Translations under genes and position numbers: made by a program | Shown here: piece after piece, positions 22,108-40,117 of the stretch | Layout of the letters: each line of letters begins with the position of its first letter | How positions within the stretch are numbered: the stretch's first letter is position 1 | DNA from: Pararhizobium sp. IMCC21322 | GTDB lineage: Bacteria > Pseudomonadota > Alphaproteobacteria > Rhizobiales > GCA-2746425 | Assembly (NCBI RefSeq): GCF_030758295.1 | Contig: NZ_CP132335.1 | Coordinates: 906,412 to 970,411, forward strand | Direction: 5' to 3' | DNA length: 64,000 nt | Notes under the pieces: model-generated | The model's input: only the letters and a program-made list of their open reading frames with translations | The model's database searches: none | What the model was told of the DNA's origin: nothing

Positions 22108-22833
22108 TCACGCCGTTTCACCGCTTTCCCGCTTCGGCAATTGCTGCAGATAATCCGCTACGTCATCCACCGGAATGACATCGGCATATTTGCAATTGAG
22201 ATCGAACAGATTCATGGCGTGGCTGGCTTCAAACCGGTCAAAGGCGGTTTCTTCCGGAATCACCACTTTGAAATTGAACGAATAGGCATCCACACTTGTC
22301 GCCCGCAAACAGCCTGATGTGGTGCAGCCGGTCATGATCAGCGTGTCAACATCCAGAAAATTCAGATGGCTCATGAAGAGTGTGCCGAAAAAGGCCGAGG
22401 GCTTGCGCTTGCCGATCAGAATATCCTGCGGCTCCGGCTTCAAAGACGCAACTGTCTGGGTGGCATGGGCGCCTTCCTGACTGGTTTTTTCGCTGCCTCG
22501 ATGATTTTTACCTACCTGCACACCGCTGTCGATCATATCCGGGCGGCGTTCTGACTGGGTATAGAACACTGGCAGGTTTTTTGCCCGTGCCAACTTCAAC
22601 AGCCGTTCAATATGCGGAACAGCCTTCCAGCCTGCCTCGCCACAATGGGTGCGGTATTGTTTCAGGCCCTCTTCATGCGCCTCGCCAGGTTCATTGCCGC
22701 AGAAATTGTATTGCACATCGATAATGAACAGAGCTGGCCGTGTGCCAAAACCACCGCGTTTGCCATAGCCCGCAAGCTGGTAAATCCGCTTGTCTTTATC
22801 GGTCAGAAACTTGTCCCAAACCCGTTCTGTCAT
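22108..22833 (-). CDS. Isochorismatase-family amidase (N-carbamoylsarcosine/maleamate amidase-like)
   Basis: A 241-residue cysteine hydrolase of the isochorismatase superfamily. Asp is in PALFIIDVQYNF, Lys in LIGKRKPSAFFGT, and the nucleophile Cys in LIMTGCTTSGCLRATSVDA. The N-terminal ERVWDKFLTDKDKRIYQLAG extension resembles N-carbamoylsarcosine amidase and maleamate amidase. It would release ammonia from a terminal amide or carbamoyl group. The ATG at 22833 has AAAGGA upstream. It is the last gene of a five-gene operon, eleven bases after the cyclic amidohydrolase, whose ring-opened product it may take. Confidence 0.88.
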   Translation of the reverse strand: MTERVWDKFLTDKDKRIYQLAGYGKRGGFGTRPALFIIDVQYNFCGNEPGEAHEEGLKQYRTHCGEAGWKAVPHIERLLKLARAKNLPVFYTQSERRPDMIDSGVQVGKNHRGSEKTSQEGAHATQTVASLKPEPQDILIGKRKPSAFFGTLFMSHLNFLDVDTLIMTGCTTSGCLRATSVDAYSFNFKVVIPEETAFDRFEASHAMNLFDLNCKYADVIPVDDVADYLQQLPKRESGETA

Positions 22834-22844
22834 GTCTTGTCCTT

Positions 22845-24203
22845 TCAGCACGCGCGGTGCAGATATTGTCCATGGGGTGACGACGCAGTGACCAGATTGC
22901 CGTTCTCGGCAATAATCTGTCCCCGCAATATTGTATGCGTGACCGCACCCCGGCACCGTTTGCCTTCATAGGCCGAATAGTCAGAAAAGGAAGGCGATTG
23001 CGCGACGTCAATCAAAGTTTCCTTAGCCGGGTCAATAATGGCAAAATCGGCATCATAGCCTGGCGCAATCGAGCCCTTGTTTGGCAGGCTGTAGAGCGCG
23101 GCCACATTGCGGCTGGTCGCTTCTGCCAGTCGTTCCAAAGGAATATCCCGTTTGTGAAAACCTTCTTCCAGCAGCACTGGAAGGATTTGGCCAACGCCTG
23201 GAAAACCGGCACTGGCCTGCCAGATATCCGGCCCTTTGGTGGACCGTTTTCGCGGCACATGATCGGAACCAATGGTGGAAATATCGCCGGCTGCGACGCC
23301 TTCCCACAAGCCATCAATATCGGCCTGCGACCGCAGCGGCGGATTGACTTTTCCAATGGCTCCCAGATCAGAATCATGGGGCAGGGTGAGGTAGTGAATG
23401 CAGGTTTCTACATGAATGGGCGGCCGGTTGCGGTGACGCATACGGCGCACCAGATCAAGGCTCTCGACTGTCGACATGTGAACTATATTCACCGGGCAAT
23501 TGGCTTTCTCGCCAAAGAACGCAACGCGAAATACATTTTCTGTCTCCAGAAAACCCGGAGATTGCTCATCCCAGACTTTCAGATCATCGCGCCCGGATGC
23601 TTTGAGCGGGGCGCGAAAAAACGGAATGACCTCGGTGTTTTCACAATGCACACCCACCACGCCGCCCTTGACCTTTGATCCCGCATCAAGCGCTGCAAAC
23701 AGCAGATGATCATCCACTTCGGTAAAGCCCTTGGCCGCGCCGGTCGCGCCCTTGTACATGAGATAGACTTTGATAGAGGTTACGCCATGGGTTTTGGTGG
23801 CCGCAGCCAGTTCCGCTACATGTGCCTGCGATGTAATGCCGAAATGAAATCCGAAATCGATAACACTGCGCGTGAGGGCTTCGTCGCGCCAATCCGCTGC
23901 TGATTGCATCAATTCCTGGCTGCGCCAGAAACTCATCAGGCCGGTCACACCGCCCAAAGCAGCAGCCTGTGTTTCACTCGCCCAGTCATTCTCCTTGTCG
24001 CCAAAGCCGATATGGGTATGCGGGTCGATCAGGCCGGGAAATATCCATTTGTCCCGGCAGTCTATCACCCGCAGTGAATCCGGACGTTGATCTGCAGCCA
24101 GTATGGCCGCAATCTTACCGTCCTTGATGCCAATCGTGCCGGATCGGATCCCTTCTCCGGGGAAGATGATGCTGCCGTTCAAAAGACACAGATCAAAGCT
24201 CAT
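22845..24203 (-). CDS. Dihydroorotase/hydantoinase-family cyclic amidohydrolase
   Basis: A 452-residue metal-dependent amidohydrolase. The HxH motif is in GLIDPHTHIGFGDKE and the candidate carboxylated Lys in SIKVYLMYKG. His ligands follow in GVHCENTEV and IVHMSTVES, and the catalytic Asp is in TIGSDHVPRK. This is the full set for D-hydantoinase, dihydropyrimidinase and allantoinase. It opens a cyclic amide or imide. The start lies within a four-base overlap with the aconitase-family gene (24200-24203), so the two are coupled. The substrate is not readable. Confidence 0.92.
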   Translation of the reverse strand: MSFDLCLLNGSIIFPGEGIRSGTIGIKDGKIAAILAADQRPDSLRVIDCRDKWIFPGLIDPHTHIGFGDKENDWASETQAAALGGVTGLMSFWRSQELMQSAADWRDEALTRSVIDFGFHFGITSQAHVAELAAATKTHGVTSIKVYLMYKGATGAAKGFTEVDDHLLFAALDAGSKVKGGVVGVHCENTEVIPFFRAPLKASGRDDLKVWDEQSPGFLETENVFRVAFFGEKANCPVNIVHMSTVESLDLVRRMRHRNRPPIHVETCIHYLTLPHDSDLGAIGKVNPPLRSQADIDGLWEGVAAGDISTIGSDHVPRKRSTKGPDIWQASAGFPGVGQILPVLLEEGFHKRDIPLERLAEATSRNVAALYSLPNKGSIAPGYDADFAIIDPAKETLIDVAQSPSFSDYSAYEGKRCRGAVTHTILRGQIIAENGNLVTASSPHGQYLHRAC

Positions 24204-26920
24204 TCGGTCATCTCCTTGATGCGGTTCTTGCCCTTGGCATTGGCAATAAGAGATTGAAAAATTCCGCCCTGCCGCAGCAATTCCGTTTCCTGCATGCCGC
24301 TGACATCCAGCTGTGCGTCAAAGACAGTGTCTTTGCCTGATGCATCTTTTGCCGTGACGACGACGGACTGACCGCCTTCCAAAGCCTGGCTCAAACCGGC
24401 AAAACTGAAGGTTTCAAACCCGGTAAGCCCAAGACTGTCGATAGATTGACCCTCAACAAACACCAGCGGAATGATACCCATCCCGATCAGATTGGCCCGG
24501 TGAATGCGTTCAAAGGACTGTGCCAGCACAAGCCGAACGCCCAGAAGTTTTGGTCCCTTCGCTGCCCAGTCCCGGCTCGATCCCATGCCGTAATCACGTC
24601 CAGCCAACACAATGGGGTTTTTGTGATTGTCCGTCAGCCATTGGGCCGCATCGAAAATCGGCAGGACATCGCCATCCGATGTGAGTCGGGTAAATCCGCC
24701 TTCAACGCCCGGCACAAGCCGGTTTTTCATACGCTGATTGCCAAACGTAATGCGCGTCATGAAGTCATGATTGCCGCGCCGCTGCGTGACGGCGTTAAAG
24801 TCGGATGGCGCAACGCCGCTATCCATCAAATAGCGCCCGGCCAGACTGTCGCTCAGAATTTCACCACTGGGGGTCACATGATCTGTGGTGAGAGAGTCCC
24901 CGGCCATGACCAGCACCCGTGCGTTCGATAATTCATCGGGCAGATCTGTGGCTGGCAAATCAAAGAACGGTGGCCGTTTGATATAGCTGGAGTGCGTATC
25001 CCAGGCGAATTGCTGGCCAGATGGGCTTTCCAGATCGCGCCACAGCTTTGACCCCTGATAGAGGCTGGCATAGCTGGCATTGAACCGCGCTGGCGTTTGG
25101 CTGGTGCCGACCAAAGACAGAATTTCATCCCGGTCCGGCCAGATATCTTTCAAAAAGACCGGCCCGTTGTCGGGGTCAAACCCAAGCGGCTCAGCATCAA
25201 AGTCAATGTCGACCCTGCCTGCCAGTGCGAAGGCAACGATGAGGACGGGAGAGGCAAGGTAGCTTGCCCGGCAGCTTTTATGTATGCGCCCTTCAAAATT
25301 GCGGTTCCCGGACAGCACAGCCGCCGCGACCAAATCCTGATCAGAGATGGCATCTGCAACCACGGGATTAATGGGGCCGGATTTCCCCGAACAGGTGGTG
25401 CAGCCATAGCCGACAATATGAAACCCAAGCTCCTGCAATGGGCCCATCAAATCGGCGTCCTGCAAATAGTCGCGCACCAGTTTCGAGCCCGGTGCCATGG
25501 AGGTTTTGACAAAGGCGGGAACGGTCAAGCCCAGACGCCTTGCATTGCGCGCGAGCAGACCAGCCCCGATCATCACAGTCGGGTTGGAGGTGTTGGTGCA
25601 GGAGGTTATTGCGGCGATGACAATGCTGCCATGGGTCAGCGTGTGGTCTTTGCCAGCAAGGGTAATGGTCGCTTTGTTCTCCAAAGCGTGCGGCGGCAGT
25701 CCAAATCCGCCATTCTGTGTATCGGTCGAGAGCGTTTCTCGGAAAGAGTGCGCAAGCGCATCCAACGCCACAAGATCCTGCGGTCTTTTCGGCCCCGAAA
25801 CGCTTGGCCGGATGGACGCCAGATCAATCTCAAGGATGTCCGAATAGTCAGCCTCTTCGTCCGCATCGGCAAACAGGCTGGATGCTTTGGCGTAGGCCTC
25901 GACCAGCGCGATGTGCTCTTTGCTTCGACCGGATTGTTGCAGATAATCAATCGTGTTGTTGTCAATTGGAAAGAAGCCAATGGTCGCACCATATTCCGGG
26001 GCCATATTGGCAATAGTCGCCCGGTCCGCGACGGACAGCGCCTCAAGTCCGCTGCCGAAAAACTCTACAAAGGCCCCCACCACACCATAGTCCCGCAACC
26101 GGTTGGTGATGGTCAAAACCAGATCGGTTGGCATGATGCCGGCCTGCAAGGCACCGGTCAGACGCACGCCAATGACACGCGGAATACGCACGCTATAGGC
26201 ATTGCCGAGCATGGCCATTTCACCATCAATGCCGCCAACACCCCAGCCCAGAAGGCCAATGGAGTTGATCATGGTCGTATGGGAATCGCAGCCAAGCACG
26301 AATTCCGGAAAGGCCAGAGGTTGCCCCGGTGCCTGGTCATCCAGAGCCACAAGACGGGCCAGCTTTTCCAGATGCACCTGATGGATAATGCCTGAGCCAG
26401 GCGGCACGATCGTCAGATTGTCAAACGCCGCTTCGGCCCATTTAAAAAATGCGTAGCGTTCCGCGTTGCGCTCCATCTCCTTTGCTTCATTCAGCGCAGG
26501 CGCATCAATGCGCCCGGAATGGTCGACGATCAGCGAATGATCAACAACAAGGGTAACAGGCACCACCGGTTCAATCAGTTCAGGTGCAAGACCCGATGCA
26601 GCCATCGCATCGCGCGCAGCAGCCAAATCCATCAATGCGGGCAGGCCGCTGCTATCTGGAAACAGAACCCGGTTGGCTTTCAGCGAGCAGATAATCTCGC
26701 CACTATCCGCCCCCAAATTCACCAATGCATCAATCTGCGTTGAAACATCGGCGCCTTTCAGCTGCTGGCGCAACAGATTTTCCAGCACAACCATCAGACA
26801 TTTGGGCAGGGGCCGCTTGCGCGCACGCAATACGCGCTGCAAATCCAGACAGGCGTGGGAGCGAGGGCCGGTTACATCAAACCGCTTAACCTTCAATCTG
26901 TCTGTATTCGCAGCAATCAT
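24200..26920 (-). CDS. acnA: Aconitase-family hydratase (AcnA type)
   Basis: A 906-residue AcnA/IRP-type enzyme. The [4Fe-4S] cysteines are in ITSCTNTSNPTVM and GCTTCSGKSGP. The C-terminal swivel domain has GRDYGMGSSRDWAAKGPKLL. Citric-acid-cycle AcnA usually reads GCTTCIGNSGPL, so this copy is divergent near the cluster. Its place between an ICL-like lyase and a cyclic amidohydrolase argues that it hydrates or isomerises an unsaturated di- or tricarboxylate of this pathway rather than being the housekeeping aconitase. That role is inferred from context. The RBS is weak. Confidence 0.88.
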   Translation of the reverse strand: MIAANTDRLKVKRFDVTGPRSHACLDLQRVLRARKRPLPKCLMVVLENLLRQQLKGADVSTQIDALVNLGADSGEIICSLKANRVLFPDSSGLPALMDLAAARDAMAASGLAPELIEPVVPVTLVVDHSLIVDHSGRIDAPALNEAKEMERNAERYAFFKWAEAAFDNLTIVPPGSGIIHQVHLEKLARLVALDDQAPGQPLAFPEFVLGCDSHTTMINSIGLLGWGVGGIDGEMAMLGNAYSVRIPRVIGVRLTGALQAGIMPTDLVLTITNRLRDYGVVGAFVEFFGSGLEALSVADRATIANMAPEYGATIGFFPIDNNTIDYLQQSGRSKEHIALVEAYAKASSLFADADEEADYSDILEIDLASIRPSVSGPKRPQDLVALDALAHSFRETLSTDTQNGGFGLPPHALENKATITLAGKDHTLTHGSIVIAAITSCTNTSNPTVMIGAGLLARNARRLGLTVPAFVKTSMAPGSKLVRDYLQDADLMGPLQELGFHIVGYGCTTCSGKSGPINPVVADAISDQDLVAAAVLSGNRNFEGRIHKSCRASYLASPVLIVAFALAGRVDIDFDAEPLGFDPDNGPVFLKDIWPDRDEILSLVGTSQTPARFNASYASLYQGSKLWRDLESPSGQQFAWDTHSSYIKRPPFFDLPATDLPDELSNARVLVMAGDSLTTDHVTPSGEILSDSLAGRYLMDSGVAPSDFNAVTQRRGNHDFMTRITFGNQRMKNRLVPGVEGGFTRLTSDGDVLPIFDAAQWLTDNHKNPIVLAGRDYGMGSSRDWAAKGPKLLGVRLVLAQSFERIHRANLIGMGIIPLVFVEGQSIDSLGLTGFETFSFAGLSQALEGGQSVVVTAKDASGKDTVFDAQLDVSGMQETELLRQGGIFQSLIANAKGKNRIKEMTE

Positions 26921-26934
26921 CGACAGGGCTCGTT

Positions 26935-27852
26935 TCAGCGGTGATATTTCGTCTCAATGGCTTCTGTTGTCAGGAGCTTGGCTTCCAGGTCGCGCGCGGA
27001 ATCATAGTCCATAAGGTCCATGATTTCCTCAATGCCAGCCAGTAAATCTGTCCGGTCGACCGGTATACCGGTTTCAATGACCTCTCGCATGACGCTCAGA
27101 GCTGTCTCCATGGCTCGTATGGCCGCAGCCGGCAGCATACGCGGCAGACTGATGCGTTGCACACCCAGTTCTTTCAGGCGGGGCAGGGGAATGAGCGGTG
27201 TTGTGGGCCGCGCACGTATGCCAAAACCCATATTGACCGAAACCGGCACGTCTGCTGCCTCAACCACCCGGGCAATTGTCTCTTCGGAATTGACCGCATC
27301 GGCAAAAATCATGTCAGCACCGGCCTCAACATAGGCTTTGATGCGATCCAGTGTTTTCTCCAGCCCTTCAACGGCCAGCGCATCAGTGCGCGCCACAATG
27401 ACAAAATCATCATCGCGCCGCGCCAGGCAGGCCGCCTCAATTTTCTTCTGCATTTCTGTGCTGTCGACCACCTCTTTGCCGCTCATATGGCCACAGCGTT
27501 TCGGGCTGACCTGATCTTCAATATTCACGCCGACAGCGCCAATGGCCTCAAATTCCTGGACAGTGTGATAGACATTGACCGGATTACCATAGCCCGTATC
27601 TGCATCACACGTGACCGGCAGATTGACCGCCCGCACGATGGCGCGGCACTGGTCCAGATTTTCCGCAAGGCCCATGACGCCCATATCGGCGATGCCCATT
27701 CGCGAGTTCGAGATAGCCGCTCCACTGGTCGCAACGGTTTTATAACCGGCTTTTTCGATCAGCCGGGCGCTGTAGCCATCATAGGCACCACAGGAAACGA
27801 TGAGATCATCGCCCGCCATGAACTCGCGATATTGTCTCGCTTTTGTCGGCAT
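26935..27852 (-). CDS. Isocitrate lyase/PEP mutase-family lyase (methylisocitrate/dimethylmalate lyase-like)
   Basis: A 305-residue ICL/PEPM protein. Landmarks are VSCGAYDGYSARLIEKAGY, the metal-binding VTCDADTGYGNP, the acid IEDQVSPKRCGH whose KRCGH loop supplies the catalytic Cys of C-C lyases, and VIVARTDAL. KRCGH separates it from PEP mutase and from many oxaloacetate decarboxylases. It favours cleavage of a 2-methylisocitrate- or 2,3-dimethylmalate-like substrate into pyruvate plus an acid. AAAGGA precedes the ATG at 27852. It lies 14 bases ahead of the aconitase-family gene, which may feed it. Confidence 0.9.
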   Translation of the reverse strand: MPTKARQYREFMAGDDLIVSCGAYDGYSARLIEKAGYKTVATSGAAISNSRMGIADMGVMGLAENLDQCRAIVRAVNLPVTCDADTGYGNPVNVYHTVQEFEAIGAVGVNIEDQVSPKRCGHMSGKEVVDSTEMQKKIEAACLARRDDDFVIVARTDALAVEGLEKTLDRIKAYVEAGADMIFADAVNSEETIARVVEAADVPVSVNMGFGIRARPTTPLIPLPRLKELGVQRISLPRMLPAAAIRAMETALSVMREVIETGIPVDRTDLLAGIEEIMDLMDYDSARDLEAKLLTTEAIETKYHR

Positions 27853-27889: not shown

Positions 27890-29167
27890 CTATTGGCCGA
27901 GCACTGCAAAGGCCTCTGTCATGGCGTCTTTGGTCAGGTCTATATCCTGTTGTGTATGGGCGCTGGACAGATACATCAGCCCGCGTGCAATGATCTGCAC
28001 ATTGCGTTTCAACATTTCTGCAGCGAACCGTGCGGTCAGTTGCTTGTCAATATGGGCCGTGTCCGAGAGGTTGGTGATTTTGGGCAGGCCCAGAAAAATC
28101 TGCAGTGCTGAACCAACCCTTGTGACGCTGGCCGTAACGCCTGATGCATTTGCACATGCATTGGCGTGATCTTCCAAATCGGCAGCCATTGCATCAATAT
28201 CATTGTAAATCGTCGGCGCATGGCTGCGCAGATGATTGATACAGGCAATGGAGGCGGCAAGGCTGATGGGGTTCCCGTTAAACGTCCCCCGGTGCAACAT
28301 GCGGCCGGATGCAATCGGTTCCATAGCCTCTTTAGTACCTGCTATGGCACCAATCGGCATGCCTGATCCCATGGCCTTGCCGATGACAGCAATATCAGGA
28401 CAGACCTTCAACACCTGCTGGGCGCCGCCAACAGACAGCCGGTAGCCGGTGATGACTTCGTCAAAGATCAAAACGACGCCAAGTTCCTGTGTTTTTCGGC
28501 GGATGGCCTCCAGAAACCCTGCAGGTGGATACAGACACCCGCCATTCACAGCGATTGGCTCCAGAATAACAGCTGCATAATCCGAAGAGATCGCTGCCTC
28601 AAACCCGGCCGTATCGCCCCAATCCAGAATGGTCATATGAGACGCGGCATCTGGATTCTGGCCAATTGTAGCGGGGCCGTCATTCTGCGCATCATTGGCG
28701 AAATGGATGTTATCAAACCAGCCATGGTAATTGCAGCGAAACTTGATGACAGGCAATTTGCCGGTAACCGCACGCGCCGTACGCAGTGCCAAATGGGCAG
28801 CCTCAGAACCGGAGCTGACAAAGGCCGACTGTTCGGCACAAGGCAGCGTGTCGGCAATCAACTCTCCCAATTCCGCCTCGCCGGTATGCACAGAAGCGGT
28901 GCGCAAGCCAAGCTGGACCGCGTTCTGGATGGCGTCCACCACACAAGCTGGAGAATGACCGAGAATCAGCGGACCATAACCCAGCGCATAATCAACAAAG
29001 CCCGCGCCGGTTTCATCATAAATGTGCGCTTCCTCCGCACGTTTGGCCACGATCGGTGCAGGCAACTGGCGACCGCGCGGTGTCGAGGACACGCCGAACG
29101 CGACGCTTTTAAGCGCGCGTTCCCGGTAAGCTCGTCCATAGTCAAAGGCTTTGTCGGCAGGGTGCAT
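27890..29167 (-). CDS. Class III aminotransferase (glutamate-1-semialdehyde aminomutase-like)
   Basis: A 425-residue PLP enzyme. FVSSGSEAAHLALRTAR binds the cofactor phosphate, IFDEVITGYR holds the PLP-nitrogen Asp, and VIGKAMGSGMPIGAI carries the Schiff-base Lys. The overall pattern is GSA-aminomutase-like, a group with many catabolic transaminases. It is first in the five-gene operon, with operator site A 30 bases upstream of the ATG at 29167 (MHPADKAFD). It would move an amino group from an amine or beta/gamma-amino acid intermediate, giving a semialdehyde or keto acid. Confidence 0.9.
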   Translation of the reverse strand: MHPADKAFDYGRAYRERALKSVAFGVSSTPRGRQLPAPIVAKRAEEAHIYDETGAGFVDYALGYGPLILGHSPACVVDAIQNAVQLGLRTASVHTGEAELGELIADTLPCAEQSAFVSSGSEAAHLALRTARAVTGKLPVIKFRCNYHGWFDNIHFANDAQNDGPATIGQNPDAASHMTILDWGDTAGFEAAISSDYAAVILEPIAVNGGCLYPPAGFLEAIRRKTQELGVVLIFDEVITGYRLSVGGAQQVLKVCPDIAVIGKAMGSGMPIGAIAGTKEAMEPIASGRMLHRGTFNGNPISLAASIACINHLRSHAPTIYNDIDAMAADLEDHANACANASGVTASVTRVGSALQIFLGLPKITNLSDTAHIDKQLTARFAAEMLKRNVQIIARGLMYLSSAHTQQDIDLTKDAMTEAFAVLGQ

Positions 29168-29196
29168 TCTGGCTCTCGCAATTTGAAGATGCCCAT

Positions 29197-29218
29197 AATG
29201 TATTAACATTAGTACATT
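29197..29218. promoter_or_regulatory. Regulon operator site A (WWTGT-N12-ACAWW)
   Basis: AATGT, twelve bases, ACATT, starting 30 bases upstream of the aminotransferase ATG. The inner part contains AACATTAGT, close to sites B and E. The outer dyad extends to TAATGTA/TACATTA. The spacing is identical to sites B, C, D and E. Confidence 0.6.
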
Positions 29219-29259: not shown

Positions 29260-29793
29260 CTAAAGAGCGCGTTCAACTTCCCGTTGGTGGTCGATCTCAT
29301 CTCGTTTGAGAATCAGCATGCCCATGAACTCAATGCCTGACTTCATGGAATCCATGATCAGCCTGACGGTATCACCAAGCGGCAGGCGGCCATCAACAAG
29401 CTGATATTTTTCCGGCAACTCAATCAGACCGAGAGACGTGAAAGACTTATAGTTCTTCTGAAGGTGGATACAGGACCAGTGCATGGTCATCGACAATTGC
29501 ATTTTCAGGAACGAGGAAGGCTGAGTGTGCCAGACCGTAACATCACTGTCGCTCATGATCTCAAAGCTGAGGCTGACCGCAGAATTCATGCGAAATTCAG
29601 CCGTGAACACATCGCTGGCAAGACCCTGGCAGCATTCAAAAATGTCCTGAAAATCGTGGCTTTTTATCGCACGCCTGACAGTCTGTTTGCCGTTTTGGCC
29701 TTCAAAATGAATGACGACCTCTTCACCTTTCGGCGCGGTTGATTCGATCAGGATTTCAGTGAAATCCAATTCATACGGGGCCGGCGGGTTCAC
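29260..29793 (-). CDS. Hypothetical protein, 177 residues
   Basis: Not recognised. It has no signal peptide or membrane helix, is probably cytosolic, and is rich in aromatic and Met residues in the middle (SDVTVWHTQPSSFLKMQLSM, then HWSCIHLQKNYKS). The C-terminus is helical and charged (MLILKRDEIDHQREVE). It is divergent from the FAD monooxygenase gene and shares its intergenic region with operator site B. It could therefore belong to the regulon or encode a sensor or binding protein for its substrate; that is speculation. Confidence 0.6.
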   Translation of the reverse strand: MNPPAPYELDFTEILIESTAPKGEEVVIHFEGQNGKQTVRRAIKSHDFQDIFECCQGLASDVFTAEFRMNSAVSLSFEIMSDSDVTVWHTQPSSFLKMQLSMTMHWSCIHLQKNYKSFTSLGLIELPEKYQLVDGRLPLGDTVRLIMDSMKSGIEFMGMLILKRDEIDHQREVERAL

Positions 29794-32090: not shown

Positions 32091-32900
32091 ATGTTGAAAG
32101 AAACCAAAAAGAAGCCGAAGGGACGATCCAAGATCGACCATTCCGTCCAGGACGTCATACCGCTTTATTATCGTGTCTATGAAATACTGCGTAAGGAAAT
32201 AGAGCGCGGAGATTTTCCTGAAAATACGCCGCTCCCCGGTGAGCAGGAAATTGCCCTCCGGTTTGAGGTCTCCCGCGTGACTATCCGCCGGACCATGCTG
32301 TTGCTGGAAGAGGCGGATCTCATCACGCGCTTTCGCGGGCGTGGCACCTTCGCCAATCCTGCCGCGATCAAAACCGATGATGCGACAAATTACAGCGGCT
32401 TTGACCAGAATATCAAAGATTTTGAAGAAAACACCAAGGTTGAATTGATCAACTCTCAAACGGTCACCTTACCGGATTGGGCGCATGAGATCATTGGTGA
32501 TATCGGCCCGGTTCTGGAAATCGAATACACAAGACGTGAAAGCCAGCAACCCTTCTCCCACATCCGCGTCTACGTGCCGGAGCCGGAAGCCAGCAAACTG
32601 AACATTGACGAGTTGGGCAACCGGACCGTGACAACAGCGCTGGAAGATGCAGGCATCACAATCATTCACATGGACCAGAGACTGACGGCCATTGCAGCTG
32701 ATCCGGCTGAGGCCGGGCATCTGGGATTATCTGAAGGGCATCCGCTCATTCGGGTCCGGCGCGTTCTGTACGATGCAGATAATCGGCCCGTCCAATGTGT
32801 CGAGGCGACCTACAATCCCGAATTTTTCGAATATCGGGTTGAGCTGTCCCGCGAGAAACGCTTCGGTGGTGCGCCGCAATGGGTCGCGGCTAACAAATAA
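32091..32900 (+). CDS. GntR-family regulator, HutC/UTRA type
   Basis: A 269-residue regulator. The wHTH lies in PLPGEQEIALRFEVSRVTIR and LITRFRGRGTFA (residues about 25-90). A UTRA ligand domain follows (VLEIEYTRRESQQPFSHIRV, EGHPLIRVRRVLYD). HutC relatives repress catabolic operons and release DNA on binding a pathway substrate. ATG at 32091 is preferred over the adjacent GTG. It lies 72 bases after the racemase-fold gene on the same strand and is the obvious candidate to bind sites A-E, which have the paired TGT/ACA arms common in this family. Confidence 0.9.
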   Translation: MLKETKKKPKGRSKIDHSVQDVIPLYYRVYEILRKEIERGDFPENTPLPGEQEIALRFEVSRVTIRRTMLLLEEADLITRFRGRGTFANPAAIKTDDATNYSGFDQNIKDFEENTKVELINSQTVTLPDWAHEIIGDIGPVLEIEYTRRESQQPFSHIRVYVPEPEASKLNIDELGNRTVTTALEDAGITIIHMDQRLTAIAADPAEAGHLGLSEGHPLIRVRRVLYDADNRPVQCVEATYNPEFFEYRVELSREKRFGGAPQWVAANK

Positions 32901-32937: not shown

Positions 32938-34485
32938 CTATCGTCTGATGAATGGATTGGGGATATCGACATTTGTTGAAATCCAGACGCTTTTCAGCTC
33001 CAGATATTCCATCATGCCGGGAATGCCACCTTCACGGCCAATACCGCTCATCTTGAAGCCGCCAAACGGGGATGTAACGCTGGTAGAGCGGTAATTGTTC
33101 ACCCAGATGGTTCCGGCCCGAACCTTCTCCGTCATGCGGATGCCGCGCGCCAGGTTTTCTGTCCAGATACCGGCAGCCAGTCCGAACTTGATATCATTGG
33201 CGATGCGCACCGCATCCTCTTCCGTGTCAAAGGGAATAACTGACAATATCGGCCCAAAAACCTCTTCCTGTGCAATGCGCATGGAATTGTCGACATCTGC
33301 AAAAATGGTCGGCTCGTAAAACAGGCCGTTTGGATAGCCATCGACACTGGCGCGTTTGCCACCACGTACAAGCCGCGCGCCTTCTTCGGTGGCTATGCGC
33401 ACATAATCTTCGATCTTCTTGAGCTGCGGAGCTGTTGAAATAGGCGCAATCTGGGTGCTGGGATCTGACGGATGGCCAAACTTGATGTCTTCCAGAAATG
33501 TGACCAGTCGCTCCAGAAAGGCATCATGGATGGAGCGTTGTACCAAAAGCCGCGATCCAGCCACACAGGTCTGCCCGGAGGCCGCAAAAATTCCCGCGAC
33601 AGCACCTTTCAGCGCCTGATCGAGATCCGCATCTTCAAAAATGATATTTGGTGATTTGCCGCCAAGCTCCATCGTGACGCGCTTCATGGATCGGGCGGCC
33701 TGCTCATTGATGATCCGGCCAGCCTCCGGTCCGCCGGTAAAGGCGATGCGTTCCACATGGGGGTGAGACACCAGCGCCTCTCCCATTTCATGCCCGAAAC
33801 CGGTGACGACATTTACAACGCCTTTGGGAAAGCCGGCCAATTCCACCAGTTTGACAAATTCAAGCAGCGAGGCGGAGGTGAACTCTGATGGTTTCAACAC
33901 AACCGTATTGCCCGCCGCCAAAGCGGGTGCAAGTTTCAGACTGGTGAGCGGCAGCGGGGAGTTCCACGGCATGATACAGGCAACCACACCCAGTGGTTCA
34001 TAACGCGTGAAGTTGAAAACGCCCGGTTTGTCGCTGGGTATGGTCGACCCTTCGATTTTGTCAGCCAGACCACCATAATAATAATAATAGTTCGACATGT
34101 AGCGCATCTGATTGCCCAGTTCGGCGATCAGTTTGCCATTGTCCTTCATTTCCACAGATGCCAGCCAGTCCGCATTCTCCAGGATCAGATCACCAAGCTG
34201 CCGCAGAAGCTTGCCCCGTGCGCTGGCGGAAAGGCCGCGCCATTCAGGGTTCTCAAAGGCTGCCTGTGCAGACGCGCAGGCTCGTTCGACATCCGCATCG
34301 GTACCGCGTGCGATTTTTGACCACACTTCACCTGAGACGGGGTCTGTGCTTTCAATGTAGGAACCGGAGTCTGAGCCAGTGAAGGCTCCATCAATATAAT
34401 GGCCATAGACCCGCAGCCCGGCCTCATCCGTTGGTGTTGGTAAGATACCGCTATTGACAGGAGTCTTGAGCACAGAATCTAACAT
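32938..34485 (-). CDS. NAD(P)-dependent aldehyde dehydrogenase
   Basis: A 515-residue ALDH-superfamily enzyme. The N-terminal CIMPWNSPLPLTSLKLAPAL region, GFGHEMGEALVSH, the catalytic Glu in VTMELGGKSPN and the catalytic Cys in ASGQTCVAGSRLL are all intact. The C-terminal GGFKMSGIGREGG is typical of betaine/semialdehyde-type ALDHs. It would oxidise a (semi)aldehyde made by the aminotransferase or by oxidative deamination. It is convergent with the GntR gene and monocistronic. AAGGGAT precedes the ATG, and operator site C covers the leader. Confidence 0.94.
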   Translation of the reverse strand: MLDSVLKTPVNSGILPTPTDEAGLRVYGHYIDGAFTGSDSGSYIESTDPVSGEVWSKIARGTDADVERACASAQAAFENPEWRGLSASARGKLLRQLGDLILENADWLASVEMKDNGKLIAELGNQMRYMSNYYYYYGGLADKIEGSTIPSDKPGVFNFTRYEPLGVVACIMPWNSPLPLTSLKLAPALAAGNTVVLKPSEFTSASLLEFVKLVELAGFPKGVVNVVTGFGHEMGEALVSHPHVERIAFTGGPEAGRIINEQAARSMKRVTMELGGKSPNIIFEDADLDQALKGAVAGIFAASGQTCVAGSRLLVQRSIHDAFLERLVTFLEDIKFGHPSDPSTQIAPISTAPQLKKIEDYVRIATEEGARLVRGGKRASVDGYPNGLFYEPTIFADVDNSMRIAQEEVFGPILSVIPFDTEEDAVRIANDIKFGLAAGIWTENLARGIRMTEKVRAGTIWVNNYRSTSVTSPFGGFKMSGIGREGGIPGMMEYLELKSVWISTNVDIPNPFIRR

Positions 34486-34496: not shown

Positions 34497-34518
34497 AATG
34501 TTATGTTATGCTAACATT
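34497..34518. promoter_or_regulatory. Regulon operator site C (WWTGT-N12-ACAWW)
   Basis: AATGT, twelve bases, ACATT, embedded in a nine-base perfect dyad (TTAATGTTA at 34495-34503, TAACATTAA at 34512-34520). It ends about ten bases before the ribosome binding site of the ALDH gene. It is the most symmetrical of the five sites, though its inner bases differ most. Confidence 0.6.
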
Positions 34519-34622
34519 AATACTTTTTGACCTTACTGCGCAAGAGACGCGGGGGAAAAAACCCCTGCCGGACGCCGCGAACGGCTCCCCGAAAGACAGC
34601 GCTTGAAGAATCCAGTTGTATT

Positions 34623-34644
34623 AAGGTAGCGTTTATAATACATT
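34623..34644. promoter_or_regulatory. Regulon operator site D (degenerate)
   Basis: AAGGT, twelve bases ending TTTATAAT, then ACATT, 50-70 bases upstream of the solute-binding protein start. It has one mismatch to AATGT in the left arm and keeps the TATAATACAT right half seen in site B. This is the weakest of the five sites. Confidence 0.4.
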
Positions 34645-34695: not shown

Positions 34696-35745
34696 ATGAA
34701 ATTCGGAACCCGCTTTACGGCAGCTGCTCTGGTTGCAGCCGGTCTTTCGGCCACAGCCTTTCTGCCGACTGTGGCAGACGCACGTGATCTCACAATTGTG
34801 GGATTTGGTGGCGGCTATCAGGATAGCGCACGTGAACACCTCTTTGAACCATTTGAAGCCAGTACCGGAATCGCTGTCAGCGATGATGTCTATAATGGCG
34901 AAATGGCCAAGGTTTATGGCATGGTCGAGGCTGGCGATGTCACTTATGACATCATCATGGTTGAGGCGCCTGAACTGGTCCGCGGTTGTGAAGATGGTGT
35001 GTTTGCCAAGCTTGACTACGATGTCATCGACAAATCCAAAATCATCGAAACTGCTGTTCACGAATGCGGTGTCGGCGGTGCCGGCTGGGGTGTTGTCGTG
35101 TTCTATGACAAGGCACGTCACGCAGAAGGCCCAACCAACCTTCAGGAATTCTGGGACACAGAAAAATTCCCGGGCAAGCGCTCTTTGCGCACAGGTCCGA
35201 AGATTACGCTTGAAGTGGCATTGATGGCTGATGGTGTAGCAAGTGCGGATGTTTATGACGTTCTGTCCACACCGGAAGGTGTTGACCGCGCTTTTGCAAA
35301 GCTGGATGAAATCAAGGACGATATTGTCTGGTGGAAATCCGGCGCTCAGCCGCTGCAATTCGTTGGCAGTGGTGAAGTCGACTATGCCTTTGGTTACACA
35401 GGCCGGATTATCCGGGCCATGGGTGAAGGCGCCGACTACGACATGAACTGGAACACGCTGCTTTACTCTGTTGATTATTGGGCTGTTGTCGAAGGCTCTC
35501 CAATGACCGAACAGGCAATGCAGATGGTTGACTACATCACAGACGCTGGTCCGCTGAGAAATCAAACGAATGTATGGCCATCCTCTCCTGCCAATAAGGA
35601 GATCAACATGGATCCGGAAATTCAGGCGAAGAACCCGGGTATGGTTCTGAACCATTCAGACAAGGGCCTGTTCCTGAACACAGAGTTCTGGATTGCAAAT
35701 GGTGATGATCTGGAAGCCCGATTTACATCCTGGGCAGCTCAGTAA
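34696..35745 (+). CDS. Polyamine/Fe-type ABC transporter substrate-binding protein (PotD/PotF-like)
   Basis: A 349-residue periplasmic binding protein. It has a Sec signal peptide (FTAAALVAAGLSATAFLPTV, then ADA) and then the family start DLTIVGFGGGYQDSARE. Further landmarks are AKVYGMVEAGDVTYDIIMVE, GVGGAGWGVVVFYDK and the hinge region EFWDTEKFPGKRSL. Type-2 folds of this group bind putrescine/spermidine, but also other amines and small organic cations. The ATG at 34696 has AGGAG seven bases upstream. It is followed by a strong hairpin, then by both permeases and the ATPase. Confidence 0.93.
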   Translation: MKFGTRFTAAALVAAGLSATAFLPTVADARDLTIVGFGGGYQDSAREHLFEPFEASTGIAVSDDVYNGEMAKVYGMVEAGDVTYDIIMVEAPELVRGCEDGVFAKLDYDVIDKSKIIETAVHECGVGGAGWGVVVFYDKARHAEGPTNLQEFWDTEKFPGKRSLRTGPKITLEVALMADGVASADVYDVLSTPEGVDRAFAKLDEIKDDIVWWKSGAQPLQFVGSGEVDYAFGYTGRIIRAMGEGADYDMNWNTLLYSVDYWAVVEGSPMTEQAMQMVDYITDAGPLRNQTNVWPSSPANKEINMDPEIQAKNPGMVLNHSDKGLFLNTEFWIANGDDLEARFTSWAAQ

Positions 35746-35766
35746 TAGACTTTAAAAATTAAAACA

Positions 35767-35794
35767 GGCAGCACCCGGCACACCGGGTGCTGCC
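35767..35794 (+). terminator. Perfect 12-bp stem-loop between binding-protein and permease genes
   Basis: GGCAGCACCCGG, loop CACA, CCGGGTGCTGCC. The stem is perfect and GC-rich. No T-run follows (AACTCAAAAAGG), so it is unlikely to be a complete terminator. In binding-protein operons such hairpins protect the upstream mRNA or allow partial termination, giving excess binding protein over membrane subunits. Confidence 0.75.
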
Positions 35795-35819
35795 AACTCA
35801 AAAAGGCGGCATCCAGTCC

Positions 35820-37004
35820 ATGAATGGCAAATCAAAAATGTCCTGGCTGCTGGTTGCACCACTGCTGATTTTGGTTTGCGTCGGCTTTATCATTCCCATC
35901 GGATACACGCTGATAAAAGCCATCAAGAATCCTGAAGTTACCGCAGCTCTTCCCCGCACAACGTCTGCCCTTGAAAGCTGGGAGTGGGACGGGAAAAGCC
36001 CGCCGCCCGAAGCGGTTTATGAAGCACTTATTGCCGATATCGAACAGGGCGATCAGGGCCGGAATTACGGTTCCATGACCCGGCGTCTCAATTTCGAGCA
36101 AAGCGGCACCCGCTCCACCATGATGAAAGCCCGGCGCGTTGCCGACAAGCTCAAAGCGCCCTATGCCGTAACCCTGCCAGAGGCGGTTCCTGAATTCGGC
36201 GATGGCGAAATCTGGCAATTGATCAAACAGAACTCCAATCCTTATACAGCGCGCTATCTCCTGCGGGCAATGGACCTGACCGTCACCATAGACGGGGCCA
36301 TTGAAAGAGTTGCCAGTGATCAGGCGATCTTTGTCGATCTGTTCCAACGCACCTTCGTCATCAGCATCTGGGTGACGGTGTTATGTGTACTTCTGGGCTA
36401 TCCAACTGCATTCTGGATGAGCACTCTGTCCGACCGGGCAGCGGGTTATGTCATGCTGCTGGTTCTCATTCCCTTCTGGACGTCCATTCTGGTGCGAACA
36501 ACAGCCTGGTTCATTCTTCTGCAAAGGGAAGGGCCGATCAATGCAGCGCTACTGGGCACCGGTCTGGTGGATGAGCCCTTGCGTATGATTTTCACCCGTT
36601 TTGCGGTTTACATCGCCATGGTCCACGTGCTGCTGCCATTCTTCATTCTGCCGATTTACAGCGTGATGAAGCGGTTGGGCATGGAATATGTCAAAGCCGC
36701 GGCCTCTTTGGGCGCGCCGCCATGGCGACAGTTTGTGACCGTCTATCTGCCACTTTCCATGCCCGGCGTTGCTGCTGGTGCTGTGATTGTGTTCATGCTG
36801 TCGGTTGGCTTCTACATTACCCCGGCGCTGGTCGGCGGTCTGCAGGATCAGATGGTCAGCTACTACATCGCCTTTTATGCCAATCAGACCATCAATCTGG
36901 GCATGGCGTCCTCATTGGCTGTCCTGCTGCTGCTTTTCACGGCCGCAACCATTGCCATTGCCAAAAAGCTGCTGCCTGAAACGGGCAGTGGCATCCGGGC
37001 TTAG
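35820..37004 (+). CDS. Polyamine-type ABC transporter permease (PotB/PotH-like), with large periplasmic insert
   Basis: A 394-residue inner-membrane permease. The first helix (WLLVAPLLILVCVGFIIPIG) is followed by a hydrophilic stretch of about 160 residues (to about residue 175) before the next helix, FVISIWVTVLCVLLGYPTAF. Ordinary PotB proteins lack this stretch and are near 290-310 residues. The EAA loop is AAASLGAPPWRQFVTVYLPL. The ATG at 35820 (MNGKSKMSW) is chosen because the upstream alternative start lies inside the hairpin. It forms the channel with the next gene's product. Confidence 0.9.
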   Translation: MNGKSKMSWLLVAPLLILVCVGFIIPIGYTLIKAIKNPEVTAALPRTTSALESWEWDGKSPPPEAVYEALIADIEQGDQGRNYGSMTRRLNFEQSGTRSTMMKARRVADKLKAPYAVTLPEAVPEFGDGEIWQLIKQNSNPYTARYLLRAMDLTVTIDGAIERVASDQAIFVDLFQRTFVISIWVTVLCVLLGYPTAFWMSTLSDRAAGYVMLLVLIPFWTSILVRTTAWFILLQREGPINAALLGTGLVDEPLRMIFTRFAVYIAMVHVLLPFFILPIYSVMKRLGMEYVKAAASLGAPPWRQFVTVYLPLSMPGVAAGAVIVFMLSVGFYITPALVGGLQDQMVSYYIAFYANQTINLGMASSLAVLLLLFTAATIAIAKKLLPETGSGIRA

Positions 37005-37018
37005 GAGGGGATCAAACC

Positions 37019-37816
37019 ATGATGCGTTTTGGATTACCCATCTTTTCCGGCCTGGTTCTGTTTTTTCTGGTGTCGCCGATTTTTGTGATTTTCCCACTGT
37101 CGCTGTCATCAAGTTCCGTTCTGACATTGCCTGTGCCGGGTTATTCGCTGCAATGGTATGAAGATTTTTTCTTCAGTGAGCGCTGGTTGCTGGCCACGCG
37201 AAACAGCTTTGTCGTCGGCTTTGCAACCATGTTCATTGCCGGGCTTTTGGGCACCATGGCGGCTTTCGGGCTGCATGCATCAGAGTTTCGCGGCAAGAAG
37301 CTGGTGCTGGGCGCCATGTCTCTGCCGATGGTCGTTCCGCTGATTGTCACCGCCACATCCATGTTTCTGGCTTTTTCAATTGTGGGCATTGCCAACTCCC
37401 TTTGGGGTCTGATCGTTGCCCACACAATCATTGCCGCCCCCTATGTGGTGATCACTGTGCTGGCTTCACTGCAAACCTTCGACATGAATCTTCTGCGTGC
37501 TGCTTTGTCTCTTGGCGCGCCGCCTGTAACGGCCTTTCGTGAAATAGTGTTGCCCATGATCATGCCTGGCGTCATTGCCGGCGCGATCTTCGCGTTTGCA
37601 ACCTCTTTTGATGAGCTTGTCATTGCCATTTTCATCACCGGCCCCGGCCAGTTTACCCTGCCGCGCCAGATGTTTGCCGGCCTCCGGGAATTCATGAGTC
37701 CGACCATCAGTGCTGCAGCGGTTATTATGGTCGTCCTGTCATTCATATTTCTGTTCATCACCGAAGCGGTTCGCCGCCGGGGTGAACGTCTTAAATCCAG
37801 CCCTGCTGAACATTAG
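37019..37816 (+). CDS. Polyamine-type ABC transporter permease (PotC/PotI-like)
   Basis: A 265-residue, six-helix permease. The opening segment is followed by SSSVLTLPVPGYSLQWYEDF, characteristic of PotC-type subunits, and then the EAA loop AALSLGAPPVTAFREIVLP. The downstream FATSFDELVIAIFITGPGQ is also standard. An AGGAGGGG run lies upstream of the ATG, 15 bases after the PotB-like stop. Confidence 0.94.
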   Translation: MMRFGLPIFSGLVLFFLVSPIFVIFPLSLSSSSVLTLPVPGYSLQWYEDFFFSERWLLATRNSFVVGFATMFIAGLLGTMAAFGLHASEFRGKKLVLGAMSLPMVVPLIVTATSMFLAFSIVGIANSLWGLIVAHTIIAAPYVVITVLASLQTFDMNLLRAALSLGAPPVTAFREIVLPMIMPGVIAGAIFAFATSFDELVIAIFITGPGQFTLPRQMFAGLREFMSPTISAAAVIMVVLSFIFLFITEAVRRRGERLKSSPAEH

Positions 37817-37825
37817 GAAGTCCTC

Positions 37826-38929
37826 ATGAGCAATCCAGTTGAGCCCTTTGTCATGTTCCGCAATGTGGACAAAAGCTACGATGGCAAGACCAATGTCGTC
37901 GACGGGCTTAATCTGGATATCGCGAAGGGTGAGTTTCTGACGCTGCTTGGTCCGTCCGGGTCTGGCAAGACAACGACATTGATGATGCTGGCCGGATTTG
38001 AAGCCCCGTCTGCCGGGACCATTCAATTCGACGGCAAGCCGATTACCGATGTGCCCACCTACAAGCGTGATTTCGGAATGGTGTTTCAGAACTACGCTTT
38101 GTTTCCGCATATGAGTGTGGAAGAAAATCTGGCTTTTCCCTTGCGCATGCGCAAGGTCGCTAAGCCTGACATCACGGACAAAGTGAAGAAAACGCTCGAT
38201 ATTGTGCAGCTTGGTCATCTGGCCGACCGCAAACCCGGACAACTTTCCGGAGGTCAGGCACAGCGTGTCGCATTAGCCCGGTCGATCGTTTTTGACCCGA
38301 AAATGGTGTTGATGGATGAGCCGCTGGGCGCGCTGGACAAGCAATTGCGCGAGCATATGCAATTGGAGATCAAGCGTCTGCACCACGAGCTTGATATCAC
38401 CATGCTTTATGTCACCCACGACCAGACGGAAGCGCTCACCATGTCTGACCGCATCGCGGTCTTCAATGACGGAAAGATTCAGCAAATCGGAACTCCGTCA
38501 CAAATGTACGGTTCGCCGCAGAATAAATTCGTTGCAGGCTTTATGGGTGAGAACAACGCCTTGAATGGCCGGATTTCCGGCACAGGCGAGGACGGTCTGG
38601 TGTCAGTGCATCTGACGGATTTCGACGCAGATATGCAGGCGGTTTCAAAGGAGCCTCTCCAGATTGGTGACACTGTGAAACTGATGGTGCGCCCGGAACG
38701 GGTGCGTCTTGTGAACGAGGCCGATGCTGAAATTCTGGCGGATGCCTTTGCATCGAATGTGACTGATACGATTTATTACGGCGATCATGTACGCCTGGTG
38801 TTTGGGTCAGATCTGAACAATGCGCTGACCACTCGCGTCCCGCATGACAGCCAAAGTCGTGACTGGGCAAAAGGGGACGCGGTGTTTTTGAGCTGGGAAC
38901 CGCAGGCTGCGATTGTTTTTCAGCCCTGA
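37826..38929 (+). CDS. Polyamine-type ABC transporter ATP-binding protein (PotA/PotG-like)
   Basis: A 367-residue ATPase. It has Walker A GPSGSGKTTTLMMLAGF, the Q-loop VFQNYALFPHMSVEEN, signature LSGGQAQRVALAR, Walker B VLMDEPLGALD and the H-loop YVTHDQTEAL. A C-terminal TOBE domain of about 120 residues (VRPERVRLV) is present, as in PotA. It drives the two permeases. Last gene of the four-gene importer operon. Confidence 0.95.
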   Translation: MSNPVEPFVMFRNVDKSYDGKTNVVDGLNLDIAKGEFLTLLGPSGSGKTTTLMMLAGFEAPSAGTIQFDGKPITDVPTYKRDFGMVFQNYALFPHMSVEENLAFPLRMRKVAKPDITDKVKKTLDIVQLGHLADRKPGQLSGGQAQRVALARSIVFDPKMVLMDEPLGALDKQLREHMQLEIKRLHHELDITMLYVTHDQTEALTMSDRIAVFNDGKIQQIGTPSQMYGSPQNKFVAGFMGENNALNGRISGTGEDGLVSVHLTDFDADMQAVSKEPLQIGDTVKLMVRPERVRLVNEADAEILADAFASNVTDTIYYGDHVRLVFGSDLNNALTTRVPHDSQSRDWAKGDAVFLSWEPQAAIVFQP

Positions 38930-38969: not shown

Positions 38970-39359
38970 CTAACGACAGGCCACCGCCCGCATCTCCACC
39001 AGCGCGTTCTCCGGTATGAAATCTGTGACCCCAATCGCTGTCCAGGCAGGATAGGGTGCTTTGATATAGACATCTTTCACGGCGCTGAAAATATCCATGT
39101 GCTGCTTAAGCTCAACATGAAAAGATGTCAGCTCAACAATGTTGTCATAGTCCAGTTTTGCTTCAGTCAGATAGATTTTCAGTTTTGCAAACGCATCGTG
39201 AAACTGCTGCTCGGGGTCTTTGGAAATCTCCCGGCCCGGATGTGCAGCGGTCACGCCGGACAGAAACACCAGATGGCCCGTATCCACGACCGGCGTGAAA
39301 TGCCAGTCATCGCGGTAGTGAGAGAAGGTTTCAGGAACAAGATAGTTTGGCATTGGCAT
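38970..39359 (-). CDS. RidA-family (Rid/YjgF) protein
   Basis: A 129-residue Rid-family protein. It has the first-strand HLVFLSGVTAAH, the middle DYDNIVELTSFHVELKQHMD and the end PYPAWTAIGVTDF plus ALVEMRAVACR, with Arg in the position that binds the substrate carboxylate in deaminase-active members. RidA hydrolyses reactive enamine/imine intermediates, and subfamilies in catabolic operons act on pathway enamines. The ATG at 39359 follows GGAGACTT. It is divergent from the AhpD-like gene across operator site E. Confidence 0.85.
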   Translation of the reverse strand: MPMPNYLVPETFSHYRDDWHFTPVVDTGHLVFLSGVTAAHPGREISKDPEQQFHDAFAKLKIYLTEAKLDYDNIVELTSFHVELKQHMDIFSAVKDVYIKAPYPAWTAIGVTDFIPENALVEMRAVACR

Positions 39360-39438
39360 AAGTCTCCATTTGGCGCGGGCGCTCGCAACAACCGCCACGC
39401 ATTGGCTATGGAAGTTTGGTTGAGATCATCTCTATTTT

Positions 39439-39460
39439 ATTGTATGAACAATAATACAAA
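39439..39460. promoter_or_regulatory. Regulon operator site E (WWTGT-N12-ACAWW)
   Basis: ATTGT, twelve bases (ATGAACAATAAT), ACAAA, in the divergent region between the RidA-like gene and the AhpD-like gene. It ends 33 bases before the latter's ATG, similar to sites A and B. Inner bases closely match site B. Confidence 0.55.
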
Positions 39461-39493
39461 TCAACCAATACATTTTCTTTTTGCGAGGTCCCA

Positions 39494-40117
39494 ATGCCGT
39501 TTTTTCCCTCAATGCCTGATGATGCCCGCAACATTCATGCTTGGGGCTTCAACCCGCAACGCTATAAATACTGGCCGAAGCTGGCCGAAGGGATCATGCG
39601 CGGTGAATCGCCACTCTCTCTTGCTGAAAGGGAAACCATTGCCGCTTACGTATCTGGCCTGAATGCTTGTGGCTATTGCTTTGGCGCGCATAAGGCAGTT
39701 GCCACGGAACACGGTATGGACCCGGCCATTCTGGAAGCAATGGTGGAAAATGTTGATACAGCTCCGGTTGCAGAAAAGCTGAAACCCATTTTGCATTTCA
39801 TCAAGAAACTCACTCTGACGCCGTCACGTCTGGTTCAGGCCGACGCAGATGCGGTTTTTGAGGCAGGCTGGAGCGAACAGGCATTGCATGATGCCATTGC
39901 AGTGTGCTGTGAATTCAGCTTTATGAACCGGCTTATGATGGGACACGGAATTGAGCCGCTTCCGCCGGAGATTGCTGCAAAACGTGCGCGCGAACGCGTC
40001 AAATATGGCTATCTGGCCATGGCCGCTATGGAGCGCGGAGCCGAAAACGTGGAAGGCCTGGATGCAGAAACACAGGACATCGTTCAACAGAACAAGGATG
40101 AAATCACCAACTCCTGA
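39494..40117 (+). CDS. AhpD-like / carboxymuconolactone decarboxylase-family protein
   Basis: A 207-residue helical protein with the AhpD-type active-site pattern: Glu in ERETIAAYVSGLN, then ACGYCFGAHKAVA, giving CxxC followed by His. Such proteins reduce peroxides through a disulphide or serve as oxidoreductases next to oxygenase pathways. GCGAGG precedes the ATG. With operator E and the divergent RidA-like gene, it probably protects or assists the catabolic regulon. Not the lactone decarboxylase itself. Confidence 0.85.
   Translation: MPFFPSMPDDARNIHAWGFNPQRYKYWPKLAEGIMRGESPLSLAERETIAAYVSGLNACGYCFGAHKAVATEHGMDPAILEAMVENVDTAPVAEKLKPILHFIKKLTLTPSRLVQADADAVFEAGWSEQALHDAIAVCCEFSFMNRLMMGHGIEPLPPEIAAKRARERVKYGYLAMAAMERGAENVEGLDAETQDIVQQNKDEITNS

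Follow-up and report, generated by a model that had tools for sequence, protein, structure and literature searches.

A conserved operator-linked regulon in Pararhizobium sp. IMCC21322, very probably under HutC-type GntR control and possibly directed at a pyrrole- or imide-type substrate

A stretch of 64,000 nucleotides from Pararhizobium sp. IMCC21322 (contig NZ_CP132335.1, positions 906,412 to 970,411; hereafter the window) carries an import and breakdown gene set of about 18 kb, in which five transcription units are preceded by copies of one operator, WWTGT-N12-ACAWW. We hold with high confidence that the regulon formed by these units is real and conserved, and the comparative evidence indicates that it is very probably controlled by a GntR/HutC-type regulator encoded in its midst. 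The regulon joins an upper module, comprising a polyamine/opine-type ABC importer, an aminotransferase (AT), an aldehyde dehydrogenase (aldh), an FAD-dependent monooxygenase (fmo), a maleate-isomerase-superfamily protein (mai) and a 177-residue protein (g177), to a lower module composed of a cyclic amidohydrolase (DHO), a second amidohydrolase (iso), a hydratase (acn) and a lyase (icl). The preferred reading is that of a substrate-induced catabolic regulon, and for the whole scheme, up to and including a pyrrole- or imide-type substrate, we estimate a probability of roughly 0.45. A preliminary description of this DNA called the regulon dispersed, which is too strong for units that form one contiguous island.

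A repeated operator in front of five transcription units

Exact matches to WWTGT-N12-ACAWW lie at positions 29197, 29984, 29991, 34497, 39439 and 58203 of the window, the last being outside the cluster; the mean in shuffled sequence is 0.90, and none of 100 shuffles reaches six. The site layout that the preliminary description had proposed for five units is therefore borne out exactly at four of them (operators A, B, C and E) and, at operator D, with the single mismatch it had allowed (AAGGTAGCGTTTATAATACATT), whereas the overlapping site at 29984 is an addition to its five.

Operator A (29197-29218, read like all the sites on the plus strand) stands 29 bases before the start codon of the minus-strand AT gene. 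Upstream of fmo are two sites, B0 (29984-30005) and B (29991-30012), which overlap with a 7-bp shift and lie on a promoter-like sequence, TTGATA-16-CATAAT, at 29980-30007. Such an arrangement suggests that occupancy of operator B may repress by occlusion, although the promoter scan overall, with 9 hits for 7.9 expected, did not exceed chance. Operator C (34497-34518) is 11 bases from the start codon of aldh, on the minus strand, and operator D (34623-34644) is 51 bases from that of the importer, within a stretch (34615-34644) that also contains an upstream TTGTATTA box. Operator E (39439-39460) lies between ridA on the minus strand and ahpD on the plus strand. The distances to the start codon at A, B and E had been put at about 30 bases and measure 29, 30 and 33; the inner run (T/G)AACA(T/A)TA, attributed to the same three sites, fits A and E, but B (TAACATAA) is one change off. 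Palindromic pairs number 9 in A, 7 in B, 8 in C, 6 in D and 7 in E, out of 11 in each case.

Genome-wide, over 5.25 Mb in one contig, the loose pattern has 75 matches against 41 for a control, and as it is not specific alone it was dropped as a finder of regulon members. The tighter form WWTGTWN10WACAWW has 18 matches against 8, and five of them, two overlapping, are in the cluster; by simple arithmetic the remaining 13 predict about 0.05 per 18 kb. Those 13 were not accepted into the regulon, eight of the ten loci inspected being inside an open reading frame (ORF) of at least 100 amino acids. A random frequency of the motif, which had been named earlier as grounds for rejecting the regulon, is thus approached by the loose pattern across the genome, but within the window the motif is above chance. 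When the matrix, built from four sites, is remade with one of them withheld, the withheld site ranks 3 in the window for A and 4 for both B and E.

Conservation within and beyond the genus

Of the five genomes of the family, three, including that of the window, contain gntR, and all three belong to one genus; in the remaining two, iso is likewise absent at E <= 1e-60. The whole gene order is kept in the two other members of the genus (L016 and L017), at 81-99% protein identity. In the aligned intergenic regions of these three genomes, invariant bases make up 122 of 125 within the sites, with operator D counted as the stretch 34615-34644, as against 306 of 557 elsewhere, and in operator A all 22 bases are unchanged. 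The operator sites are evidently under evolutionary constraint in the genus.

Two Rhodobacterales-type genomes grouped in one family, a metagenome-assembled Pararhodobacter genome (G677; locus L018) and G892, contain the cluster genes except ridA and ahpD, at 35-87% protein identity and in other arrangements, the lower module of G892 residing on a separate contig. A matrix built from window sites A, B, C and E places the sites before sbp (the substrate-binding protein gene of the importer), aldh and fmo of G892 at ranks 1, 2 and 3 of 37380, and those before sbp, acn/icl, aldh and fmo of G677 at ranks 1, 2, 3 and 6 of 34016. Column-permuted matrices equal the real one in 9 of 2000 cases for G892 and in 1 of 2000 for G677. 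The accepted sites of the two genomes score from 8.7 to 23.3. In G892 the best match of all is the sbp site, the counterpart of operator D, and fmo is again preceded by a double site with a 7-bp shift. In G677, a site of score 15.7 occupies the gap between the divergently transcribed icl and acn. The GT-N12-AC core is common to all 12 gathered sites, a uniformity that is partly built in, as the sites were chosen at that spacing. The comparison across related genomes that the preliminary description had called for thus finds the motif conserved in the genus and, in G677 and G892, present ahead of the orthologs, and the gene set kept in the two other members of the genus as well as in G677 and G892. 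A plasmid of Shinella (NZ_OZ000533) keeps the gene set without this importer and regulator, and the RidA/AhpD-like pair is conserved within the genus of the window but was found nowhere else.

A HutC-type regulator as the likely operator-binding protein

The gntR gene (32091-32900, plus strand) is the third gene after fmo and mai, and the earlier assignment of a HutC-type regulator amid the cluster is supported by matches of its product to the Pfam families GntR (57.3 bits) and UTRA (77.6 bits). Its best NCBIfam regulator equivalog is PhnF, at 92.5 bits against a cut-off of 156.8, and no cut-off is reached. With this protein as query, HutC relatives were found in the clusters of G677 and G892, at only 41-47% identity, and none in L053, L052, L095 or the G391 stretch, where a GntR of the FCD type adjoins acn in place of the HutC-type protein. 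The best operator scores in these four gene blocks are 8.4, 8.9, 6.4 and 10.0, respectively; the match of 10.0 is a stray one inside the iso gene, those of 8.4 and 8.9 are in the gap between the FCD gntR and acn, and no site exceeds 10.0. Regulator and site are therefore exchanged together between the lineages, which is the best evidence for the HutC-type GntR as the binder, and this protein most probably recognizes the operators.

Like the HutC, PhnF and FarR repressors, the regulator of the window combines GntR and UTRA domains, and its putative sites precede catabolic operons, its own included. The spacing of the sites raises the question of whether they belong to a different regulator. In most HutC-regulator sites, as given in the available part of PMC4494728, GT and AC are 4 nt apart rather than the 12 nt seen here. 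The same part of that source names exceptions, however, among them FarR with its TGTATTAWTT repeats, and a TGTATTA-like box occurs in the operators of the window (PMC4494728). Moreover, three lineages have the site and the HutC-type GntR together, and the blocks with the FCD-type GntR instead yielded no site of similar strength, so that control by some other protein appears improbable. Besides the atypical spacing, two features of the sites speak against the regulon as drawn, namely that operator C is the weakest, with a leave-one-out rank of 30 in the window, and that the G677 fmo site, at 8.7, is inseparable by score from stray matches, which reach 8.4 to 10.0 in blocks presumed to be site-free.

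In the scheme proposed, the HutC-type GntR would be made from the fmo operon, itself under GntR control, and as a dimer on WWTGTA-N10-TACAWW sites it would repress five promoters until some pathway compound released it. A HutC-type regulator whose probable operator is unusual is now on offer for study, and so is a metabolic module that has changed its regulator between lineages, the sites changing along with it. A few kilobases beside the cluster, at 19192-19851 of the window, is a weak relative (28%) of the FCD-type GntR.

Enzymes of the lower module

The family assignments come from scans of 16 cluster proteins. Among the enzymes, acn passes the AcnA cut-offs, without reaching that of acnD, and the listed equivalog matches of the others fall below their cut-offs, so that the named functions are not simply transferable.

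The genes of the lower module are all on the minus strand. DHO (22845-24203), of the hydantoinase/allantoinase/dihydroorotase group, is the proposed imidase, and iso (22108-22833), of the isochorismatase family, the proposed half-amidase. Next are acn (24200-26920), an AcnA-type member of the aconitase family, and icl (26935-27852), of the phosphoenolpyruvate mutase/isocitrate lyase family, whose nearest relative is 2-methylisocitrate lyase. Relative to five PrpB chains compared, icl bears an R-x-R-P-T-T-P insertion, both extra arginines of which are kept in 8 of 8 aligned sequences and could form a seat for an additional carboxylate.

An aconitase-type hydratase followed by a lyase of this family recalls the last steps of the 2-methylcitrate cycle (AcnD/PrpD and PrpB). 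The cluster differs in the insertion of its lyase, in the unmet prpB and acnD cut-offs and in the absence of a PrpC-type synthase among its genes, and a 2-methylcitrate assignment was set aside on the PrpB equivalog score (249.6 bits, cut-off 354.4). Degradation of cyclic imides proceeds through an imidase step and then a half-amidase. The cluster has the same order of a cyclic amidohydrolase and an amidase step, but couples the two with enzymes resembling aconitase and PrpB and with an upper module that is oxidative. The available part of PMC4437985 places imidases in the cyclic amidohydrolase family.

The lower module also occurs by itself. It is found without the upper-module enzymes in the G391 stretch and on Antarctobacter plasmid pSMS3-3, in the latter near luciferase-type monooxygenase and short-chain dehydrogenase/reductase genes. 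Since DHO and iso thus stand beside a hydratase and a PrpB-type lyase even without a nearby aminotransferase, iso most simply releases a dicarboxylate, and we infer that the lower module converts a substituted maleimide to tricarboxylic acid (TCA)-cycle acids. DHO would open the imide ring, iso would take ammonia off the half-amide, acn would hydrate the resulting substituted maleate and icl would cleave the hydrated acid. This succession from imide to diacid to lyase seems slightly better than an even proposition.

Within the same regulon a ureido route has also to be considered, in which ring opening of a hydantoin or dihydropyrimidine by DHO is followed by loss of the N-carbamoyl group through iso, by oxidation of the freed amino acid through AT and aldh, and by cleavage of the resulting acid through acn and icl. 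The nearest solved relatives do point in that direction: for DHO a D-hydantoinase, which acts on hydantoins, and for iso an N-carbamoylsarcosine amidohydrolase, with dihydropyrimidinase as the best NCBIfam match of DHO (279 bits, below the cut-off of 393.25). Yet in Antarctobacter and G391 the pair accompanies genes for a hydratase and a lyase but not AT, an amino acid freed by a carbamoylase is no obvious substrate for an aconitase-type enzyme, and the oxygenase is left unexplained, all of which makes the ureido route unlikely.

Enzymes of the upper module and a possible substrate

AT (27890-29167, minus strand; the search query, 27890-29170, was one residue longer) is a class III aminotransferase, nearest among solved structures to glutamate-1-semialdehyde aminomutase, and is proposed to turn CH2NH2 into CHO. 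Beside it is g177 (29260-29793, minus strand), which accompanies the upper module in four lineages and has no Pfam or NCBIfam match; its conserved motifs are WHT-P, M-WSC-HL and EFMG. The fmo product (30043-31260, plus strand) is of the FAD-dependent aromatic hydroxylase type, with PnpA and HspB as its nearest solved relatives, and in the wider order its relatives are only 33-36% identical. In mai (31266-32018, plus strand), a member of the AMDase/EutA/maleate-isomerase superfamily whose nearest solved relatives are maleate isomerase and AMDase, glycine replaces the C-terminal of the two catalytic cysteines in 6 of 6 aligned sequences. An ectoine (EutA) assignment was set aside for mai, the EutA equivalog scoring 37.8 bits against a cut-off of 318. 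The module is completed by aldh (32938-34485, minus strand) and by the four plus-strand importer genes (34696-38929): sbp (34696-35745), two permeases (35820-37004 and 37019-37816) and an ATPase (37826-38929). The nearest solved relatives of sbp are agropine, MotA, γ-aminobutyrate and polyamine binders. In the gap between sbp and the first permease is a strong GC hairpin of 12 pairs (35767-35794), which possibly lowers permease expression relative to the binding protein. Beyond the importer are ridA (38970-39359, minus strand), encoding a Rid family protein, and the gene for an AhpD/CMD-like protein, ahpD (39494-40117, plus strand).

The combination of AT, aldh and an FAD monooxygenase points to an aminomethyl heteroaromatic compound that is oxidized to the 2-carboxylate and hydroxylated. 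The importer would bring in this compound, AT would convert its aminomethyl group to an aldehyde and aldh the aldehyde to a carboxylate, and fmo, perhaps together with mai and g177, would hydroxylate the ring with loss of CO2, leaving a disubstituted maleimide for the lower module.

The iso and mai families are also used in the nicotinate (nic) pathway, and a pyridine compound might be degraded in that style by the same regulon, through an FAD hydroxylase, ring opening, a maleamate-type amidase and a maleate isomerase. The similarity of fmo to the pyridine hydroxylase HspB and to PnpA would fit, as would the overall likeness to the lower nic pathway in having an FAD hydroxylase, an isochorismatase-type amidase and a maleate-isomerase-superfamily protein. 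No ring-opening dioxygenase, however, was found among the families of the 16 cluster proteins, the cysteine lost from mai is one that maleate isomerase needs for catalysis, and acn and icl would be without a role, so that pyridine breakdown is very unlikely here. A maleate isomerase (nic) assignment for mai was set aside on the same glycine.

Porphobilinogen, a pyrrole with aminomethyl, acetate and propionate substituents, is the building block of heme and chlorophyll, and it is the substrate we tentatively favor for the maleimide-forming route, although it is less likely than not to be the right one. The maleimide derived from it would bear acetate and propionate chains, and hydration by acn followed by cleavage by icl would then yield succinate and 2-oxoglutarate, in parallel with the conversion of 2-methylisocitrate to succinate and pyruvate. 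It is rather doubtful, though conceivable, that in some bacteria the cluster serves as a dedicated, GntR-regulated system for importing porphobilinogen, from which all tetrapyrroles derive, and mineralizing it via a carboxylated hematinic-type imide to these two acids, with the lower half as a general funnel of substituted maleimides, for example from tetrapyrrole breakdown, into the TCA cycle. Weighing against the preferred scheme, besides the solved relatives of DHO and iso, are the need for a single FAD monooxygenase to put two oxygens on the ring and the lack of a definite step for mai, g177, ridA and ahpD.

Neither bacterial porphobilinogen catabolism nor this gene set is described in the literature searched, which consisted of titles and the starts of abstracts and included few subscription journals. 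Within that literature the pathway is, with moderate confidence, without a described counterpart, in agreement with the earlier statement that the set matches no known catabolic pathway as a whole. The cluster is a testable gene set for the breakdown of pyrroles or maleimides, compounds for which that literature yielded no bacterial pathway. Should porphobilinogen or a similar pyrrole prove to be the substrate, the cluster would show how tetrapyrrole precursors can give their carbon and nitrogen back to central metabolism.

Association with hemC

The association of the cluster with the porphobilinogen deaminase gene (hemC) is suggestive only. In G892, hemC and fmo point away from each other across the double operator, and on the Shinella plasmid it adjoins AT, so that it is inside the cluster in two of the four lineages carrying the upper module. 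In an unrooted tree of 12 sequences these two cluster copies and one from a Haematobacter plasmid form a single clade with support of 0.995, outside of which are the hemC genes of G677, Sulfitobacter, Paracoccus, Shinella PSBB067, Sinorhizobium, G391 and the genus of the window. On the other side, the cluster copy is the only hemC found in G892, the single hemC of G677 and of the window's genus lies outside the cluster, and a threshold of E <= 1e-30 finds hemC on 77 plasmid records. Among other plasmid copies, three annotated regions have other neighbors, three regions carry no annotation, and four searched loci are without cluster genes except general ABC ATPases.

On the Haematobacter massiliensis plasmid pOT1-2 (L097:4688-9927), the same-clade hemC stands behind genes for a methylamine-dehydrogenase-like amine dehydrogenase and cytochrome c. 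It is a speculative idea that this dehydrogenase takes the place of AT in acting on an aminomethyl pyrrole.

Distribution of the modules

The genus of the window, G677, G892 and the Shinella plasmid all combine AT, g177, fmo, mai and aldh; on the plasmid, the block includes a different ABC importer. The Shinella strains concerned are known for acesulfame degradation, which the available part of PMC11500405 ties to a different plasmid.

The system is rare. At E <= 1e-65, fmo is found in 2 of 345 genomes of the family of G677, one being G677 itself. For AT, the only carrier at E <= 1e-125 among 398 genomes of the phylum is that of the window. Of the 385 genomes searched in the class, 12 have iso at E <= 1e-60, but it is at cluster level only in the window's own and in G391 (81%), the other ten being only 43-48% identical. 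Isochorismatase matches in Neorhizobium and Aminobacter (45-47% identity) were rejected as cluster relatives on account of their unrelated neighbors, as were the neighborhoods of three icl relatives (L040, L042 and L043) as cluster copies, being without most cluster genes.

More distant DHO-iso pairs are found beside prpB in Hydrogenophaga (iso 42%, DHO 37%, lyase 34%, the lyase being without the arginine insertion) and, in Variovorax, alongside MmgE/PrpD genes (iso 42%, DHO 38%). Together with the freestanding lower modules, these pairs make passage of the iso product to a hydratase and a lyase the simplest reading. These betaproteobacterial plasmid sets perhaps belong to a wider family of imide-degrading modules. 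On the plasmids of Hydrogenophaga BPS33 (L103:8973-13023) and Variovorax PBL-E5 (L104:4656-12093), a CobW-type/GTP-binding protein is encoded along with the DHO-type amidohydrolase and the isochorismatase. In G391, an ORF of 592 amino acids with a B12-binding domain lies just past icl (L041:11779-13557). In the window itself, an ORF of 1796 amino acids occupies the minus strand at 42956-48346.

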